Shown: positions 14,643 to 25,674 of the stretch, one piece after another
How positions within the stretch are numbered: position 1 is the stretch's first letter
How the letters are laid out: the number at the start of each line of letters is the position of its first letter
DNA from: a virus
Virus record (IMG/VR): IMGVR_UViG_3300035703_000387
Location: 1 to 25,748 of that record
DNA length: 25,748 nt
Reading direction: 5' to 3' (one strand)
Made by a program: the position numbers and the translations under genes
Notes under the pieces: model-generated
Told to the model about the DNA's origin: nothing
Database searches by the model: none
Seen by the model: only the letters and a program-made list of their open reading frames with translations

Positions 14643-14861
14643 ATGGAACAGCTTGAACACCGTGTTATCAAACTAGAGCTACGAGTAGACAACCACGCAG
14701 ACGACCTAAAGAAACTTTCAGACATCTCTGACAGTCTCAAGAAGTCCTTAGTCTCCATCGAAAAGACCCTCGCCCAGATCAAGTGGATCGCTCTTGGAGC
14801 CATCATTGCAGTCCTTGGTCAGGCGATGGGACTCGATAAAATCATAAAGGTACTCCTATGA
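14643..14861 (+). CDS. Class II holin-like / XhlA-like membrane protein
   Basis: The 72-aa protein has an N-terminal coiled coil (EQLEHRVIKLELRVDNHADD, with leucines at heptad spacing up to about residue 45) and one C-terminal membrane segment, IKWIALGAIIAVLGQAMGL (about 46-64). This layout fits the XhlA family and lies where T7 has its class II holin gp17.5, between the fibre and gp18. It probably helps time lysis at the inner membrane. No endolysin or spanin gene lies beside it; the partner endolysin should be outside the window. It overlaps gp18 by 4 nt. Confidence 0.75.
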   Translation: MEQLEHRVIKLELRVDNHADDLKKLSDISDSLKKSLVSIEKTLAQIKWIALGAIIAVLGQAMGLDKIIKVLL

Positions 14862-15118
14862 ACAAAGCAGACGAAAAAGAACTGGCTTCCCTCCATGGCG
14901 AGCTTGCCAAGGTTCTGAAAGACGCCATTGTCAAGGAGTATGTCGATGAAGCAGGGAATGCTATTCCTCCCCCAGCGGCTATCCTCAACGTTGCCCGGCA
15001 ATTCCTGAAGGACAACAAGATCGAGGCCGTCTCAGTTGAGGGTTCTCCGCTTCACAATCTAGCCGATCTACCCGTATTCGAGGACGAGAACATCGTCCCC
15101 ATCCGTAAGGTACAGTAG
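14858..15118 (+). CDS. gp18: Terminase small subunit (T7 gp18-like)
   Basis: The 86-aa product matches T7 gp18 in length (89 aa) and pattern: an N-terminal helix (LASLHGELAKVLKDAIV), then PPPAAILNVARQFLKDNKIEAV, and an acidic end (LPVFEDENI). In T7 the small subunit recognises concatemer DNA and controls cutting by gp19. The start overlaps the holin stop as ATGA. Between it and gp19 there is no Rz-type spanin gene such as T7 18.5, only a structured 110-bp gap. Confidence 0.9.
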   Translation: MNKADEKELASLHGELAKVLKDAIVKEYVDEAGNAIPPPAAILNVARQFLKDNKIEAVSVEGSPLHNLADLPVFEDENIVPIRKVQ

Positions 15119-15228: not shown

Positions 15229-16905
15229 ATGGATTCTAAACACAGAGTATTATCTGATTTCAGGGTGTTCTCCCATGTTATATGGGGCCACCTGAACCTC
15301 CCACCTCTCACTCCCGTACAGAATGACATCTGCTTGTACCTGCAAAATGGTCCTAAGCGGGGCATCATTGAAGCGTTCCGTGGAGTAGGGAAATCCTTTC
15401 TAACTTCAGCCTTCGTCTGCTGGATCCTCCTAAACGATCCCCAGAAGAAGATCTTGGTTGTCTCTGCCTCAAAGGAGAGGGCTGATGCCTTCTCCACCTT
15501 CGTCAAACGATTGATCAATGAAGTACCGATCCTTCAGCACTTGCGTCCTAAGGAAGGCCAAAGAGACTCTGTAATTTCATTCGACGTTGGTCCATCGTTG
15601 GCTGACCACTCACCTTCGGTTAAATCCGTGGGAATCACAGGACAGCTTACAGGTTCAAGAGCGGACATCGTTGTTGCGGACGATATCGAGACACCGGGCA
15701 ACTCAGCCACTCAGATGATGCGAGACAAGCTCTCGGAGCTGGTGAAGGAGTTTGACTCGATTCTCCGTCCCCTTCCTGATAGCCGAATCATCTACCTCGG
15801 CACCCCACAGTTGGAGATGTCCCTCTACAACGCCCTGGGCGAACGTGGCTATGAGACTCGCATATGGCCAGCTCAGTACCCAGAGATCCTCAAGGTAGCC
15901 TCCTATCAAGGAAAGCTCGCCCCTTGGATCACTCTGGCTCTGGAGAGGGATGCTACCCTCGTAGGCAAGCCTACAGACCCCCTGAGATTCGGTGAGGAAG
16001 ACCTCCTCGAACGGAGAGCGTCCTATGGTCGCTCAGGGTTCGCCTTACAGTTCATGCTCGACACATCCCTATCGGATGCCGACAGGTACCCCCTGAAGGT
16101 CTCTGACCTGGTGGTGCAGTCCCTGAACCCAACCATGGCTCACCTCAAGGTAGCCTGGGCAGCAGCTCCTGAACTCATCATCAATGATGTCCCCAACGTG
16201 GCTCTCACGGGGGATAAGTTCTATCGCCCCATGTGGCACTCCCCAGACATGGCTGAGTACACAGGCTGTGTGATGGCCATTGACCCCTCGGGTAGGGGAG
16301 CTGACGAGACAGGCTATGCCATCGTCAAGATGCTCGCTGGTAACCAGTACCTGGTGGCCTGTGGGGGTCTTATGGGTGGGTACTCAGACCAGACCCTAGA
16401 GACACTCTCAAGGCTTGCTAAGATCCACCAGGTGAACCATGTCATTGTCGAGGCTAACTTCGGTGATGGTATGTACACCAAGCTCCTGACACCAGTGATG
16501 GCTAGGATCCATAAGTGCTTGATTGAAGAAGTCAAACACTCCACTCAGAAGGAGATGAGGATCATAGACACCCTAGAGCCTGTCATGTCTCAACACAGAC
16601 TGATCATAGACCAAGAGCTGATCCGGAAGGACTTTGAATCAGCTCAGGATCCCAAGTACTCCCTCATCTACCAGATGACAAGGATCACCAAGGATCGAGG
16701 TGCTCTGATCCATGATGACCGTCTAGACGCCCTAGCGATGGCTGTAGGGTACTGGGTGGAGCATATGTCCAGAGACAACGACAAGGCAGTGGCTCAGTTC
16801 AAGTCAGAGTTCCTCAAGAAGGAACTTCAAGGGTTCATGAAGAATGCTTTTGGAGGTAAGCCTAAAGGGAACTCCTGGATCTCTACAAACAAAGCCACTA
16901 GATAG
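15229..16905 (+). CDS. gp19: Terminase large subunit (T7 gp19-like)
   Basis: The 558-aa motor protein (T7 gp19: 586 aa) carries the full ATPase and nuclease set. Walker A is FRGVGKS at residues 50-56, Walker B is VVADDIE at 148-154, and RDSVISFDVGP and SVKSVGITGQLTGSRADI are conserved with T7. Nuclease acidic residues are D352 (AIDPSGRG), E408 (IVEANFGDG) and D496/D500 (HDDRLDALAMA). It pumps DNA into the prohead and cuts concatemers. The ATG at 15229 lacks a close ribosome binding site (AAGGTG is 16 nt upstream), but conserved terminase sequence begins soon after it and no better start is seen. The repeat-rich junction follows. Confidence 0.96.
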   Translation: MDSKHRVLSDFRVFSHVIWGHLNLPPLTPVQNDICLYLQNGPKRGIIEAFRGVGKSFLTSAFVCWILLNDPQKKILVVSASKERADAFSTFVKRLINEVPILQHLRPKEGQRDSVISFDVGPSLADHSPSVKSVGITGQLTGSRADIVVADDIETPGNSATQMMRDKLSELVKEFDSILRPLPDSRIIYLGTPQLEMSLYNALGERGYETRIWPAQYPEILKVASYQGKLAPWITLALERDATLVGKPTDPLRFGEEDLLERRASYGRSGFALQFMLDTSLSDADRYPLKVSDLVVQSLNPTMAHLKVAWAAAPELIINDVPNVALTGDKFYRPMWHSPDMAEYTGCVMAIDPSGRGADETGYAIVKMLAGNQYLVACGGLMGGYSDQTLETLSRLAKIHQVNHVIVEANFGDGMYTKLLTPVMARIHKCLIEEVKHSTQKEMRIIDTLEPVMSQHRLIIDQELIRKDFESAQDPKYSLIYQMTRITKDRGALIHDDRLDALAMAVGYWVEHMSRDNDKAVAQFKSEFLKKELQGFMKNAFGGKPKGNSWISTNKATR

Positions 16906-16979
16906 CGACTAAAATGAAGTGCCCTAACCCCCTGTTTTATAAGACAATTCCTATAGTCCTTGAATAGGGGGAGGGGAAA

Positions 16980-17109
16980 CCTATAGTTAAACTATAGGAT
17001 AACCTAGAGATAGACCTAAAGATAGACCTATAGAGTAGACTATAGGTTGTCCTATAGAGAGACTTTAGAACCTAAAGAGACTATAGGTTGTCTATAGAGG
17101 TATCTATAG
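16980..17109 (+). repeat. Phased CCTATAG/CCTAAAG heptamer array (right array)
   Basis: About twelve heptamers of the form NCTWWAG begin at 16980, 16991, 17003, 17015, 17027, 17039, 17051, 17062, 17071, 17080, 17091 and 17103. Forms include CCTATAG, CCTAGAG, CCTAAAG and ACTATAG. Spacing is mostly 11-12 bp, about one helical turn, so the copies face the same side of the DNA. T7 carries arrays of CCTAAAG beside its terminal repeats. It lies 75 bp after the terminase gene. Confidence 0.8.
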
Positions 17110-17145
17110 GTTATATACTAATGATGATATAGTAGTATATAAACC
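17109..17145 (+). repeat. AT-rich inverted repeat next to the right array
   Basis: GGTTATATACTA (17109-17120) pairs with TAGTATATAAACC (17133-17145) with one bulged base and a 12-nt loop. It directly abuts the last heptamer. It could form a cruciform or hairpin at the genome end; hairpin intermediates are known in T7 concatemer processing, so a role there is possible. Confidence 0.6.
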
Positions 17146-17148
17146 TTA

Positions 17149-17173
17149 GGTTAGCTAGAGGTTAGCTAGAGGT
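17149..17173 (+). repeat. 11-bp tandem repeat GGTTAGCTAGA
   Basis: Two perfect copies (17149-17159, 17160-17170) and the first 3 bases of a third. The 11-bp period continues the helical phasing of the heptamer array and each unit contains TAGCTAGA. Confidence 0.75.
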
Positions 17174-17414
17174 GATCTTGTGGGGGTGTTACCACCATCC
17201 AAGTCAGGAATCCAACCCAGGAATATTTCATTACAAAAATCTGAATGCCTACCTCGATTTCTTAAAATGGGCGATTCCCCCCTCATGCTTTCGCTGGTTT
17301 CTCAAAGTTTCCCATAGAATCAAGGGGTTAGGTGGCACAATCAACGGCACAATCCCGCTAAGTCCTTGATTTCATTAGCACTACTTCGGATTAGATATCC
17401 TATGCACCCTCAAA

Positions 17415-17485
17415 ACTGATAGCAAGATGGTAAGTGTTGCGTAAAAACAACAGTCTGCCTCTCTGACTATCAGTCGGTTTTTTTT
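17415..17485 (+). ncRNA. Hairpin/terminator module 1 (possible small RNA)
   Basis: ACTGATAG (17415-17422) is the perfect inverted repeat of CTATCAGT (17467-17474). Between them is the 18-nt motif TGTTGCGTAAAAACAACA (17435-17452), itself a 5-bp stem with loop CGTAAAAA. A shorter hairpin, CTGACT-ATC-AGTCGG (17463-17477), followed by eight T (17478-17485), is a terminator that competes with the outer stem. The same 18-nt motif recurs at 20567-20584 ahead of another T-run. Only weak promoter-like bases are seen upstream (TTGATT 17366, TAGATA 17392, spacing too long). The terminator is clear; the RNA is a proposal. Confidence 0.5.
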
Positions 17486-17495
17486 CTGAGATAGC

Positions 17496-17581
17496 CCTAG
17501 AGATCACCCTCAAGTCCACCTCACGATCAACCACTCGCTACCCTCAAGTCCACCTCAAGTCCACCACTCGATCACCACTCG
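17496..17581 (+). repeat. Second phased heptamer array (CCTCAAG/CCACTCG)
   Basis: Heptamers begin at 17496 (CCTAGAG), 17508 (CCTCAAG), 17519 (CCTCACG), 17531 (CCACTCG), 17542 and 17553 (CCTCAAG), 17564 and 17575 (CCACTCG). Spacing is 11-12 bp throughout. CCTCAAGTCCACC itself occurs three times. The units resemble those of the array at 16980-17109, about 390 bp away, and the pair recalls the two arrays that flank the T7 terminal repeat. Confidence 0.7.
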
Positions 17582-17622
17582 CTAATCGGTCTGTTTTCGT
17601 GAGGATCACTCCTAGACAAAAC

Positions 17623-17668
17623 TATCTCATATCGTGAAAGCAAAACCATTGTTTTATCTTGCTATAAT
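17623..17668 (+). promoter_or_regulatory. Promoter of the amidoligase operon with shared upstream element
   Basis: TGCTATAAT (17660-17668) is an extended -10 box; no good -35 lies at the usual distance. Upstream, ATCTCATATCGTGAAA (about 17624-17639) closely matches TTCTCACATCGTGAAA at 20808-20823 before the other strong promoter, and both are followed by CAAAA and CCATTG. The core TCAYATCGTGA is a near-palindrome, which suggests a common regulator. Transcription would start near 17675 and cover the 39-aa gene. Confidence 0.6.
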
Positions 17669-17703
17669 CGGGCATGGCATTTGCCATTCACTAGGAGAAA
17701 ATA

Positions 17704-17823
17704 ATGTTAAAACTATTGGATCGTGTATTAGGCATTGAGGGTATCACTTGGAGTGAAGTCCTTATGGGATTAGCCCTAGCGTTTGCTTTTTGGTTTGCCT
17801 TAGTTGTTTTCTTATCAATATAA
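17704..17823 (+). CDS. 39-aa single-pass membrane protein
   Basis: MLKLLDRVLGIEGITWSEVL is followed by a hydrophobic helix (LMGLALAFAFWFALVVFLSI, residues 20-39). The start has AGGAG at 17693-17697 with 6-nt spacing. It is the first gene behind the promoter at 17660-17668 and lies 9 bp ahead of the amidoligase gene, so it is part of that operon. I recognise no family. It may sit in the inner membrane and act with the amidoligase system or be a small anti-host peptide. Confidence 0.7.
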   Translation: MLKLLDRVLGIEGITWSEVLMGLALAFAFWFALVVFLSI

Positions 17824-17832
17824 GGGGGATAT

Positions 17833-19185
17833 ATGAACTTACTTGCTTATTGGAATGAGGGAATAAACCATATTATTCCTGAAAGAAAGAAAGAACTCAC
17901 AAAAAGTTTTATTGAGAATAACTTGAGGATCAACAGGCAGTCCCGCTTTTCTTTTTATTATAACGATCAAGTAAAGGCTACTCTTAAACTTTATGGGGAG
18001 TTCTCAATAAACTTTAGACGGGCTATAAAAGACGATAACCTCAGCGAGGCAATTTATTTATTAAACAATACATATAGCGAGGTACGATCCTCACATAGAA
18101 CTTGTTGGGTAGATATCCTTGAGGAGAAGTTCTCAGGTGCAAACATACGCCAATGCAACGATTGTGGGGAGTTGATTGACGCTGAGAATGATGACTACTC
18201 CTATGCCTATGATGATTATGTGATCTGCCCTACTTGTCGTGATGAGTGCTACTCATACAGCGACAATCGGGATTGCTATATATCCAATGATGACTATGAG
18301 AATGAGGAGAGAGATGAGGATAGCGAGTATATCAACGAGTACCACTCAAGCGAACTAGGGCATATTCCATCTGAGTTCGATAAGCGTAAAACTAAGGTCT
18401 ATCTTGGCATGGAGTTAGAGGTAGAGGTGAAAGATGGGGATAGATCAGGGAAAGCACAAGAGGTATCGAGTGCAATAAGCGGGTATCGATCACCCATTGA
18501 TGACAATTATTACGACTACTCCACTCTTGAGCATGATGGTTCACTCGATTATGGTTTTGAGATCATTACGGGCTATACGGGTTTAGATGTCCATAGGGAT
18601 CAGTTGAAGTTTTTTAAGAATAGATGGCATGGAGTAAAGAGCCACGATACCAATACTTGTGGACTCCATGTGCATATCTGTAAGTCGGATATGACTATGT
18701 ACCATGCCTCTAAACTGATCCTATTTATCAATGATCCTGACAATCATAGGCTAATCAAGTCTATCGCTAGACGAGATGAGAGTGGATATGCCAAGATCAA
18801 AAACAAGGCAGAGGATAAGCGTTGGATCACTCATGCAAAGCAATTCGACAATCCTCTAAACCACTTGAACGAGGATCGTTATGAGGCATTGAACTTCAAA
18901 AACCCTAAGACAATCGAGTTTAGATTATTCAAGGGGACATTGAAATATGAAACTATCATCTCATGCCTTGAGTTCACTTATGCCTCTTGGTTTTTTGCAA
19001 GGGATACAGGTGCAACAGATTTGACGATCCCTAAGTTTTTAGATTTCATTTGCAAGCCTGAAAATCGGGCAGATACGATCTACCTCAGATCATATCTAGC
19101 GAGTAAGGGGTTCGATCTGCCTAAGTTGGGCCTTGTGAGAACTAATCCGAGAAATGAAGTACCCGCAGAAGTAGCAGAAGTTTAA
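17833..19185 (+). CDS. Amidoligase with N-terminal zinc ribbon
   Basis: The 450-aa protein matches the putative amidoligase family (glutamine synthetase-like COOH-NH2 ligases). Metal and ATP-binding acidic residues lie in GMELEVEV (192-199; E194, E196, E198); EHDGSLDYGFEII (233-245), CGLHVHIC (276-283) and EFRLFKGTL (362-370) are the other family motifs. Ahead of it, residues 108-139 form a Cys-rich zinc ribbon (C108-x2-C111, C132-x2-C135, C139). Family members are predicted to join a carboxylate to an amine using ATP, on peptides, proteins or cell-wall precursors. A glutamine amidotransferase follows directly, which could supply ammonia. The substrate is unknown. AGGGGGA precedes the start. 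Confidence 0.85.
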   Translation: MNLLAYWNEGINHIIPERKKELTKSFIENNLRINRQSRFSFYYNDQVKATLKLYGEFSINFRRAIKDDNLSEAIYLLNNTYSEVRSSHRTCWVDILEEKFSGANIRQCNDCGELIDAENDDYSYAYDDYVICPTCRDECYSYSDNRDCYISNDDYENEERDEDSEYINEYHSSELGHIPSEFDKRKTKVYLGMELEVEVKDGDRSGKAQEVSSAISGYRSPIDDNYYDYSTLEHDGSLDYGFEIITGYTGLDVHRDQLKFFKNRWHGVKSHDTNTCGLHVHICKSDMTMYHASKLILFINDPDNHRLIKSIARRDESGYAKIKNKAEDKRWITHAKQFDNPLNHLNEDRYEALNFKNPKTIEFRLFKGTLKYETIISCLEFTYASWFFARDTGATDLTIPKFLDFICKPENRADTIYLRSYLASKGFDLPKLGLVRTNPRNEVPAEVAEV

Positions 19186-19212
19186 TTTTTTAATAACTAG
19201 GAGAATTTGAAA

Positions 19213-20184
19213 ATGTGTTTATTGATTACTCAGAAGTCCACCTCACCCGCTTTAAGTGATGAGTGGCTAAAAGATTTTTATTCTTACAACGCTGATGGAG
19301 TAGGGGTTATGTTTTCTGATAGCGATACTCTCGTTATCGAGAAAATACTCCCTAAGAATGAGAAAGCGTTTATCAAGTTCTATCGGAAGCATATCCAAGG
19401 GAGAGATTGTGCATTTCACCTGAGAATGAGAACTCATGGCAATATCGATCTTGAGAACTGCCACCCTTACATGGTTCTCAATATGGCAGAGCATGGCATG
19501 GACTTATGGCTAATGCACAATGGCATTTTGACAACGGGCAATAGTGCTGATCCCTCAAAGTCGGATACATGGCACTACATTAAGGACTATCTCAGACCCA
19601 TGTTAGTAGATAACCCTGAGTTCGCTTTTCACCCTTCATTTGCTGAGATCGTTGGTAAGCATATCGGGGAGAGCAATAAGTTCGTGCTTATGGATAACTT
19701 AGGCAGACAAGTCATTATCAACGAGCAAGCGGGGGTCTATTGGGGGGGATTATGGCTATCGAATGAGTACGCTTGGAGTGCTACCTATAACTCCTCAGAT
19801 AAACCCATAGACGATCTTAAACTAGCCCAAGAGCAGATCAACGATAAACCCGTAAAACACTCATACAGCACTCCATTGTCGGGCTACTATGATAAGCAAT
19901 ACGGGTCATATCCTGATGAGGTTTTATATGATGAGATCGAAAACATTTATGCTGAGTTCGAGCATGAGGGTTTAATGGAATGTGCAAGCGTTGGGTTCAA
20001 CACTATGCTTGATTTTGCTGATCGTTTTGGTGCTGAGAGTTTTGTCGAGATCGCTTACATGGCTATCGATAAGGCAATAAGCGAGGAGTGGTTTATCAAG
20101 GTTATAAACGATCATAAGATGGCATTAGAGGCGTTTCCATACTTGGCAGATCAACAATATGCTCAAGAGTTGGAGTATGTCTAA
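19213..20184 (+). CDS. Class II glutamine amidotransferase (Ntn hydrolase)
   Basis: I start at ATG 19213, not TTG 19207, because this exposes Cys2 (M-C-LLITQ) as the N-terminal nucleophile after Met removal, the rule for class II amidotransferases; AGGAG at 19199-19203 fits. The 323-aa protein also has FHLRMRTHGNIDLENCHPY (68-86), the glutamine-binding region, and MHNG (101-104). It should hydrolyse glutamine and release ammonia. The C-terminal half, after about 200, is acidic and unlike a synthetase domain, so the acceptor enzyme is likely the amidoligase coded 27 bp upstream. It overlaps the next small gene by one base. Confidence 0.87.
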   Translation: MCLLITQKSTSPALSDEWLKDFYSYNADGVGVMFSDSDTLVIEKILPKNEKAFIKFYRKHIQGRDCAFHLRMRTHGNIDLENCHPYMVLNMAEHGMDLWLMHNGILTTGNSADPSKSDTWHYIKDYLRPMLVDNPEFAFHPSFAEIVGKHIGESNKFVLMDNLGRQVIINEQAGVYWGGLWLSNEYAWSATYNSSDKPIDDLKLAQEQINDKPVKHSYSTPLSGYYDKQYGSYPDEVLYDEIENIYAEFEHEGLMECASVGFNTMLDFADRFGAESFVEIAYMAIDKAISEEWFIKVINDHKMALEAFPYLADQQYAQELEYV

Positions 20185-24164: not shown

Positions 24165-24497
24165 ATGCAACCACAAGAGGCATTTAGATTACTCTCAGGT
24201 ATCCAGAAGGTAGATCCTGAGATGCCTATCCAGCAGGTGATGTGCTTGCTGGTTATAGCGGAAGCAGAAGAAGGCCTTTCTCTTACTGATGTTGCCAAAA
24301 AGGTAGGAATAAGCCTGACAACTGCATCTCGCTACGTAAGTGCTCTTGGTAAAATGAATCGTCATCGTACTGAGGGCTTAAAATTCATCGAGTCTCACGA
24401 GGATCCGATGGAAAGACGCAAGAAAATTATACGGATAACCACCAAGGGCAAGATCGCCCTTCGCAACATCTTAGGAGAAACCCATGCCAATCTTTAG
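24165..24497 (+). CDS. MarR-like winged-helix regulator
   Basis: The 110-aa protein has helices up to about residue 38, then a helix-turn-helix SLTDVAKKVGISLTTASRYV (about 39-58) and the basic wing (HEDPMERRKKIIRITTKGKI), as in MarR family dimers. GGGAGGTG (24148-24155) precedes the start. The gene overlaps the integrase by 14 nt, so both come from one transcript. It is a good candidate for the lysogeny switch or for controlling integration, since no CI or Cro type repressor is in the window. The palindrome upstream may be its own binding site. Confidence 0.85.
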   Translation: MQPQEAFRLLSGIQKVDPEMPIQQVMCLLVIAEAEEGLSLTDVAKKVGISLTTASRYVSALGKMNRHRTEGLKFIESHEDPMERRKKIIRITTKGKIALRNILGETHANL

Positions 24498-25621: not shown

Positions 25622-25674
25622 TTTAGGTTCCGGTGACGCAAGTCGTGTGGGTTCGAGTCCCTCCGCCCGCACCA
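25622..25674 (+). other. attP/attR: 3' part of tRNA-Leu(UAG) gene
   Basis: From 25622 the sequence reads as a tRNA-Leu from the anticodon loop TTTAGGT (anticodon TAG 25624-25626), 3' anticodon stem TCCGG, a long variable arm GAC-GCAA-GTC, T-loop TTCGAGT (25652-25658), acceptor strand CGCCCGC (25664-25670) and ACCA. Bases before 25622 do not pair as a 5' anticodon stem and no 5' half is present, so this is not a full gene. A tRNA 3' end beside an integrase marks the attachment site. One T-T mismatch (25648 with 25662) breaks the T-stem, unusual for a functional tRNA. Confidence 0.88.

Follow-up and report, generated by a model that had tools for sequence, protein, structure and literature searches.

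Among the described systems, the junctions of phages T7 and T3 are the closest to the one analysed here; they lie 3' of the gp18 and gp19 terminase genes and hold a direct terminal repeat with a heptamer array on either side, and in T7 these two arrays differ, the left one mixing CCTATAG and CCTAAAG and the right one being a more uniform series of CCTAAAG. In T7, recombination at the repeats gives rise to concatemers, and cutting of the right end is sequence-specific; the completion of the left repeat before packaging in T7-like phages is not fully understood (PMC3350473). ATCTGTT followed by a U-run, known at the concatemer junction, is a class II pause or termination signal of T7 RNA polymerase (PMC11617373). 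The ends of T3 were determined by read pile-up (PMC3896407), those of P-SSP7 were sequenced experimentally (PMC3350473), and Ralstonia phages carry a repeat of 280-281 bp according to Sanger sequencing (PMC8703784); the ends of the Ralstonia phage vRsoP-WF2 are also Sanger-mapped.

The DNA considered here (the window, that is, the whole 25.7-kb stretch) is an IMG/VR fragment of a temperate T7-like phage, in which tail genes, internal virion proteins and a tail fibre precede gp18-type and gp19-type terminase genes that adjoin the junction directly on its upstream side:

14858-15118, forward strand: small terminase subunit (TerS), T7 gp18 type (PF11123 DNA_Packaging_2, E 1.9e-17; phrog_891)
15229-16905, forward strand: large terminase subunit (TerL), T7 gp19 type (PF22530 Terminase-T7_RNaseH-like, E 8.8e-40; phrog_38, E 3.5e-125)

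On the 3' side of TerL, noncoding DNA (16906-17703) is followed by amidoligase-like, glutamine-amidotransferase-like, cytosine methylase, MarR-like regulator and tyrosine integrase genes, and this order, read across the genome ends, is that of the temperate T7-like phages LUZ100, CRP-227 and HTVC019P. The location of the MarR-like regulator (24165-24497) and the integrase in the early region is shared with these three phages and RHEph21 (near tRNA-Leu in LUZ100) and distinguishes the window from T7 and T3. The 3' end of a tRNA gene (...CGTGTGGGTTCGAGTCCCTCCGCCCGCACCA) at 25632-25674, about 120 nt past the integrase gene, where ARAGORN found no complete tRNA, is probably the core of a putative attachment site. 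The early-region genes expected of a temperate T7-like phage are thus present together with a putative tRNA-derived attachment site.

The first gene past the junction is a short ORF at 17704-17823 (MLKLLDRVLGIEGITWSEVLMGLALAFAFWFALVVFLSI), which likely encodes a single-pass membrane protein and has a close version in three relatives (L004, L005 and L006); the amidoligase-like and then the glutamine-amidotransferase-like gene of the early region occupy 17833-20184. A conserved element directly 3' of TerL (16906-16977, CTATAGTCCTTGAATAGGGGGAGGGG) is found at the site of the phiOR promoter of T7, and in related phages it consists of CAATTGG, a small hairpin and GGGGG. A second copy of the TTGAATAGGGGGAGGG element after TerL, sought as a test of a phage-promoter role, was absent elsewhere in the window, and the phage promoters of LUZ100 (ATTACCACACAG) do not match this element.

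The junction itself is very probably a T7-type genome-end region, that is, of a known kind, as the preliminary description had proposed. T7 and T3 have the same layout, from TerL through an array, a left-end box, the terminal repeat, a right-end element and a second array to the early genes; phage records searched with the nucleotide sequence of the junction gave no useful match. On comparative sequence evidence, positions 16906-17700 are read, with a probability of about 0.92, as the concatemer junction of a temperate T7-like phage with a terminal repeat of about 217 bp and cuts at 17251^17252 and near 17468^17469 (^ marks a cut between bases).

Left of the predicted repeat lie the counterpart of the left T7 array, whose CCTATAG and CCTAAAG units are found in the T7 right-end sequence, and an inverted repeat:

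16981-17109, forward strand: array A, self-complementary, with 12 CTWNAG units at a spacing of mostly 12 bp
17104-17149, no strand assigned: inverted repeat, its 17-nt arms being 82% complementary, with a similar one in L002 and L003

The 12 NCTWWAG copies first counted in 16980-17109 reduce to 11 strict ones, the twelfth unit being CCTAGAG at 17003, and the reported spacing of 9-12 bp stands (start to start 11, 12, 12, 12, 12, 12, 11, 9, 9, 11 and 12); two more AGGTTAGCTAG units lie past the array at 17148-17170. CTWWAG occurs 11 times in the densest 130 bp, whereas none of 700 shuffles exceeds 4. As single-stranded DNA, array A folds strongly (z -6.84 over 16975-17180), and foldback on the left side reaches z -5.4 to -6.8 in the window and -2.3 in T7 and T3. 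A hairpin intermediate has been proposed for left-end processing in T7, and the predicted foldback of array A fits such a structure.

Right of the predicted repeat lies the counterpart of the T7 CCTAAAG array, here with a different unit:

17496-17581, forward strand: array B, with 7-8 CCTCAAG/CCACTCG units at a spacing of 11-12 bp and a C-rich top strand
17585-17597, forward strand: second copy of ATCGGTCTGTTTT, which closes array B, with similar ones in L003, L010 and L019

Seven CCTCAAG, CCTCACG or CCACTCG units start at 17508, 17519, 17531, 17542, 17553, 17564 and 17575, mostly 11 bp apart; the eight copies at 11-12 bp reported earlier are reached only if CCTAGAG at 17496 is counted. Array B shows little self-complementarity, and CCWCWMG occurs seven times in 90 bp, with a maximum of 3 in shuffles, so that both arrays are real. 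Their period, described as shared, is close and not identical, mostly 12 bp in A and mostly 11 bp in B, and the comparison with related phages that had been recommended reveals the same difference over 43 junctions, where the lag peaks at 12 before the left end (4.3 times the expected value) and at 11 after the right end (6.0 times). The unit varies by phage (CCTAAAG, CCTCAAG, CCAACGG, CCTTTAG, CACCAG or CCTGCC) while pitch and position are kept, and in the junctions of some relatives the periodicity is weak or absent.

The prediction of the left end draws on phages whose ends are known or on record (T7, T3, gh-1, Pasto, P-SSP7 and HTVC019P), which have in common an A-rich box, YTGA, about 7 nt, the cut, 24-26 nt and a C-tract. 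The left end of T7 reads ...CATAAAAATCTGAGTGACTA^TCTCACAG...GTTCCCCC, those of T3, gh-1, Pasto, HTVC019P and Syn5 are of the same form, and the window shares with T7 and T3 the AAAAATCTGA box, the cut, predicted in the window, 11 nt after AAAAAT and the C-tract 25 nt past the cut:

17235-17244, forward strand: left-end box AAAAATCTGA, from the weight matrix and the signature match
17251-17252, no strand assigned: predicted left virion end, a cut between these bases, at the position recorded in T7, T3, gh-1, Pasto, HTVC019P, Syn5, P-SSP7 and K1F
17277-17282, forward strand: C-tract, 25 nt inside the predicted left end

A weight matrix built solely from the known or recorded left ends of six phages (T7, T3, gh-1, Pasto, Syn5 and HTVC019P) has its best match on both strands of the window at ATTACAAAAATCTGAATGCCTA^CCTCGATT (17230-17251^17252, 21.8 bits); the next best on either strand scores 15.0, 100 shuffles reach at most 19.5, and when each phage is left out in turn, Pasto and Syn5 score low. 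The fixed-spacing pattern AAAAAY-N34..38-C5 occurs once in the window, between the arrays (0.04 expected). Among related junctions it is found downstream of TerL in 83 of 94, with 70 counts at exactly 36 nt, related contigs being among those counted so that the counts are not independent; several of the 11 junctions devoid of it are contigs that end too soon, and in 860 kb of control sequence, taken upstream of the end of TerL, the pattern is absent (0) at that spacing. When IMG/VR was scanned blind with AAAAATYTGA-N32-C5, a T7-type TerL preceded 95 of 120 among the matches listed, on the same strand and at a distance of less than 2.6 kb, compared with none of 80 stretches near TerL in a control scan at N27.

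The rule is also obeyed by P-SSP7 and K1F, both outside the training set. P-SSP7 and Syn5, with repeats of 206 and 237 bp, have CTGAG or GTGAA about 10 nt before the left end and C5 24-26 nt after it, although the A-box is weaker and Syn5 has no periodic array before its left end. phiKMV keeps the C-tract distance; its fit to the upstream box is poor, as is that of SP6. In the temperate relatives, the signature 3' of TerL is strict in LUZ100, CRP-227 and RHEph21 and has a shorter A-box in HTVC019P; a terminal repeat is annotated in LUZ100 and present in HTVC019P. Recorded left ends deviate from the rule in two close temperate relatives, BB8 by 7 nt (127-bp overlap) and LUZ100, which has a CCTCAAG-like array before its left end, by 12 nt (244 bp).

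The right end is predicted from a second, different sequence. In T7, T3 and Pasto the repeat ends at CCCT^ATCTGTT, and in Syn5 at CCCC^ATCTGTT; the window reads GACT^ATCAGTCGGTTTTTTTT at 17468^17469, thus sharing CT^ATCNGT with T7 and T3 and having ATCAGT and a T-run where T7 has ATCTGTT:

17252-17468, no strand assigned: predicted direct terminal repeat of 217 bp, with a firm left and a less certain right border
17415-17474, forward strand: terminator-like hairpin ACTGATAG...CTATCAGT (RNA fold of 17410-17490, z -3.86; terminator scan)
17469-17485, forward strand: candidate right-end element ATCAGTCGGTTTTTTTT, related to the ATCTGTT pause signal at the T7 concatemer junction

The motif ATC[AT]GT..TTTT follows the left end at 150-300 nt in 20 of 151 junctions and at 300-450 nt in 1 of 149, and in close relatives with the element the repeat is mostly about 200-280 bp long. 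Because this enrichment concerns only a minority of the junctions, the motif being present in only a minority of relatives, the right border is less certain than the left one, which is predicted firmly at 17251^17252. Differently from T7 and T3, the right element of the window lies inside a hairpin, with the ATCAGT copy in its arm; an intrinsic-terminator hairpin as a general mark of the right end was rejected, since of 30 relatives that have the element only 2 possess a matching 5' arm. The earlier placement of the virion ends between the arrays thus agrees with the best matrix match and the fixed-spacing signature, and can be refined to predicted cuts at 17251^17252 and about 17468^17469. 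As for the suggestion that the two arrays let the packaging machinery tell left from right, they do differ in sequence, but they are not needed for this purpose because each end has its own distinct cut signal.

Contig ends in relatives are suggestive of physical ends at these places, without amounting to proof. Contigs end (3') no more than 300 nt after the predicted left end in 19 of 120 among the signature matches listed, versus 1 of 80 in the control. The contig of one relative (L121) ends in ...GTCTCCCT, a T7-type right-end sequence, directly followed by a 9-nt string resembling the start of an Illumina adapter (AGATCGGAA), which possibly marks a physical DNA end in the metagenome, and a close T7 relative (L222) ends at ...TTGTCCCCT.

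The junction could be real and its repeat shorter, of about 100 bp and with its end near 17356, if the record of Bordetella phage BB8 (MK984681; L088, L089) is followed, in which the ends share exactly 127 bp; the homologous right border would then lie at ...GGCACAATCCC^GCTAAG. We consider this improbable, since an overlap of exactly 127 bp matches a common assembler k-mer length and is probably an assembly overlap. The paper on BB8, a phage similar to the Ralstonia phages DU-RP-I and RsoP1EGY, does not describe the termini (PMC7073063), and the overlap, taken up at first as a mapped repeat, was set aside. For BB8 the rule predicts a true repeat of about 278 bp, which would begin 7 nt ahead of the first base of the record and is close to the 280-281 bp of the Ralstonia phages (PMC8703784).

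A different doubt concerns the arrays, which might be by-products of repeat slippage in noncoding DNA near recombining ends, leaving only the left-end signature and the right-end element to serve packaging; the wide variation of unit sequence and copy number among relatives, and the junctions with weak or absent periodicity, would agree with such an origin, which nonetheless appears rather unlikely given that arrays of 11-12 bp pitch in a flanking position are a recurrent feature of 43 junctions and that the two sides keep distinct properties (GC skew above 0.1 in 14 of 25 junctions before the left end, with frequent foldback, and below -0.2, that is, a C-rich top strand, in 20 of 25 after the right end, mostly without foldback). 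Phased heptamers also look like iterons, array A folds strongly and a MarR-like regulator is encoded at 24165-24497, all of which would suit iterons or operators of a replication or lysogeny control region in place of packaging elements. Such a role is very unlikely: no Rep-type protein was present among the ORFs examined, one would expect a repressor to have its operator close to the target promoter (that of the RNA polymerase gene) and not at the ends, and lytic T7 and T3, together with many T7-type relatives, have arrays at the same places by the genome ends with changed unit sequences.

Under the T7-type packaging reading, each junction in replicated or excised phage DNA would contain one copy of the terminal repeat. 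The gp18/gp19-type terminase would cut the left end at 17251^17252, 11 nt after the AAAAAT box and 25 nt before the C-tract, and the right end near 17468^17469, beside the ATCAGT and T-run element; at this ATCAGT-T8 element the phage RNA polymerase would probably pause or terminate, in the manner of T7 at ATCTGTT. The repeat of about 217 bp between the cuts would be duplicated during packaging, and each virion would therefore have it at both ends. The arrays would most likely hold the packaging complex by serving as phased sites, for binding or of a structural kind, and array A could fold into the hairpin that has been proposed for left-end processing in T7.

Whether the bipartite left-end signature is a family-wide recognition element and cleavage ruler for left-end formation, conserved in T7 as well as in marine, cyanobacterial and temperate members, and previously undescribed, with array units varying beside it while pitch and position are kept, is a proposal to which we give even odds. 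A family-wide element of fixed spacing at the left end may be undescribed so far, no description having been found in the literature searched, the scope of which left older T7/T3 packaging papers mostly outside. The fixed-spacing signature around the cut is a direct target for mutation tests of left-repeat completion, and it allows left virion ends and, less surely, right ones to be predicted from assembled or prophage sequence alone, which is useful where assemblers give circles without ends.
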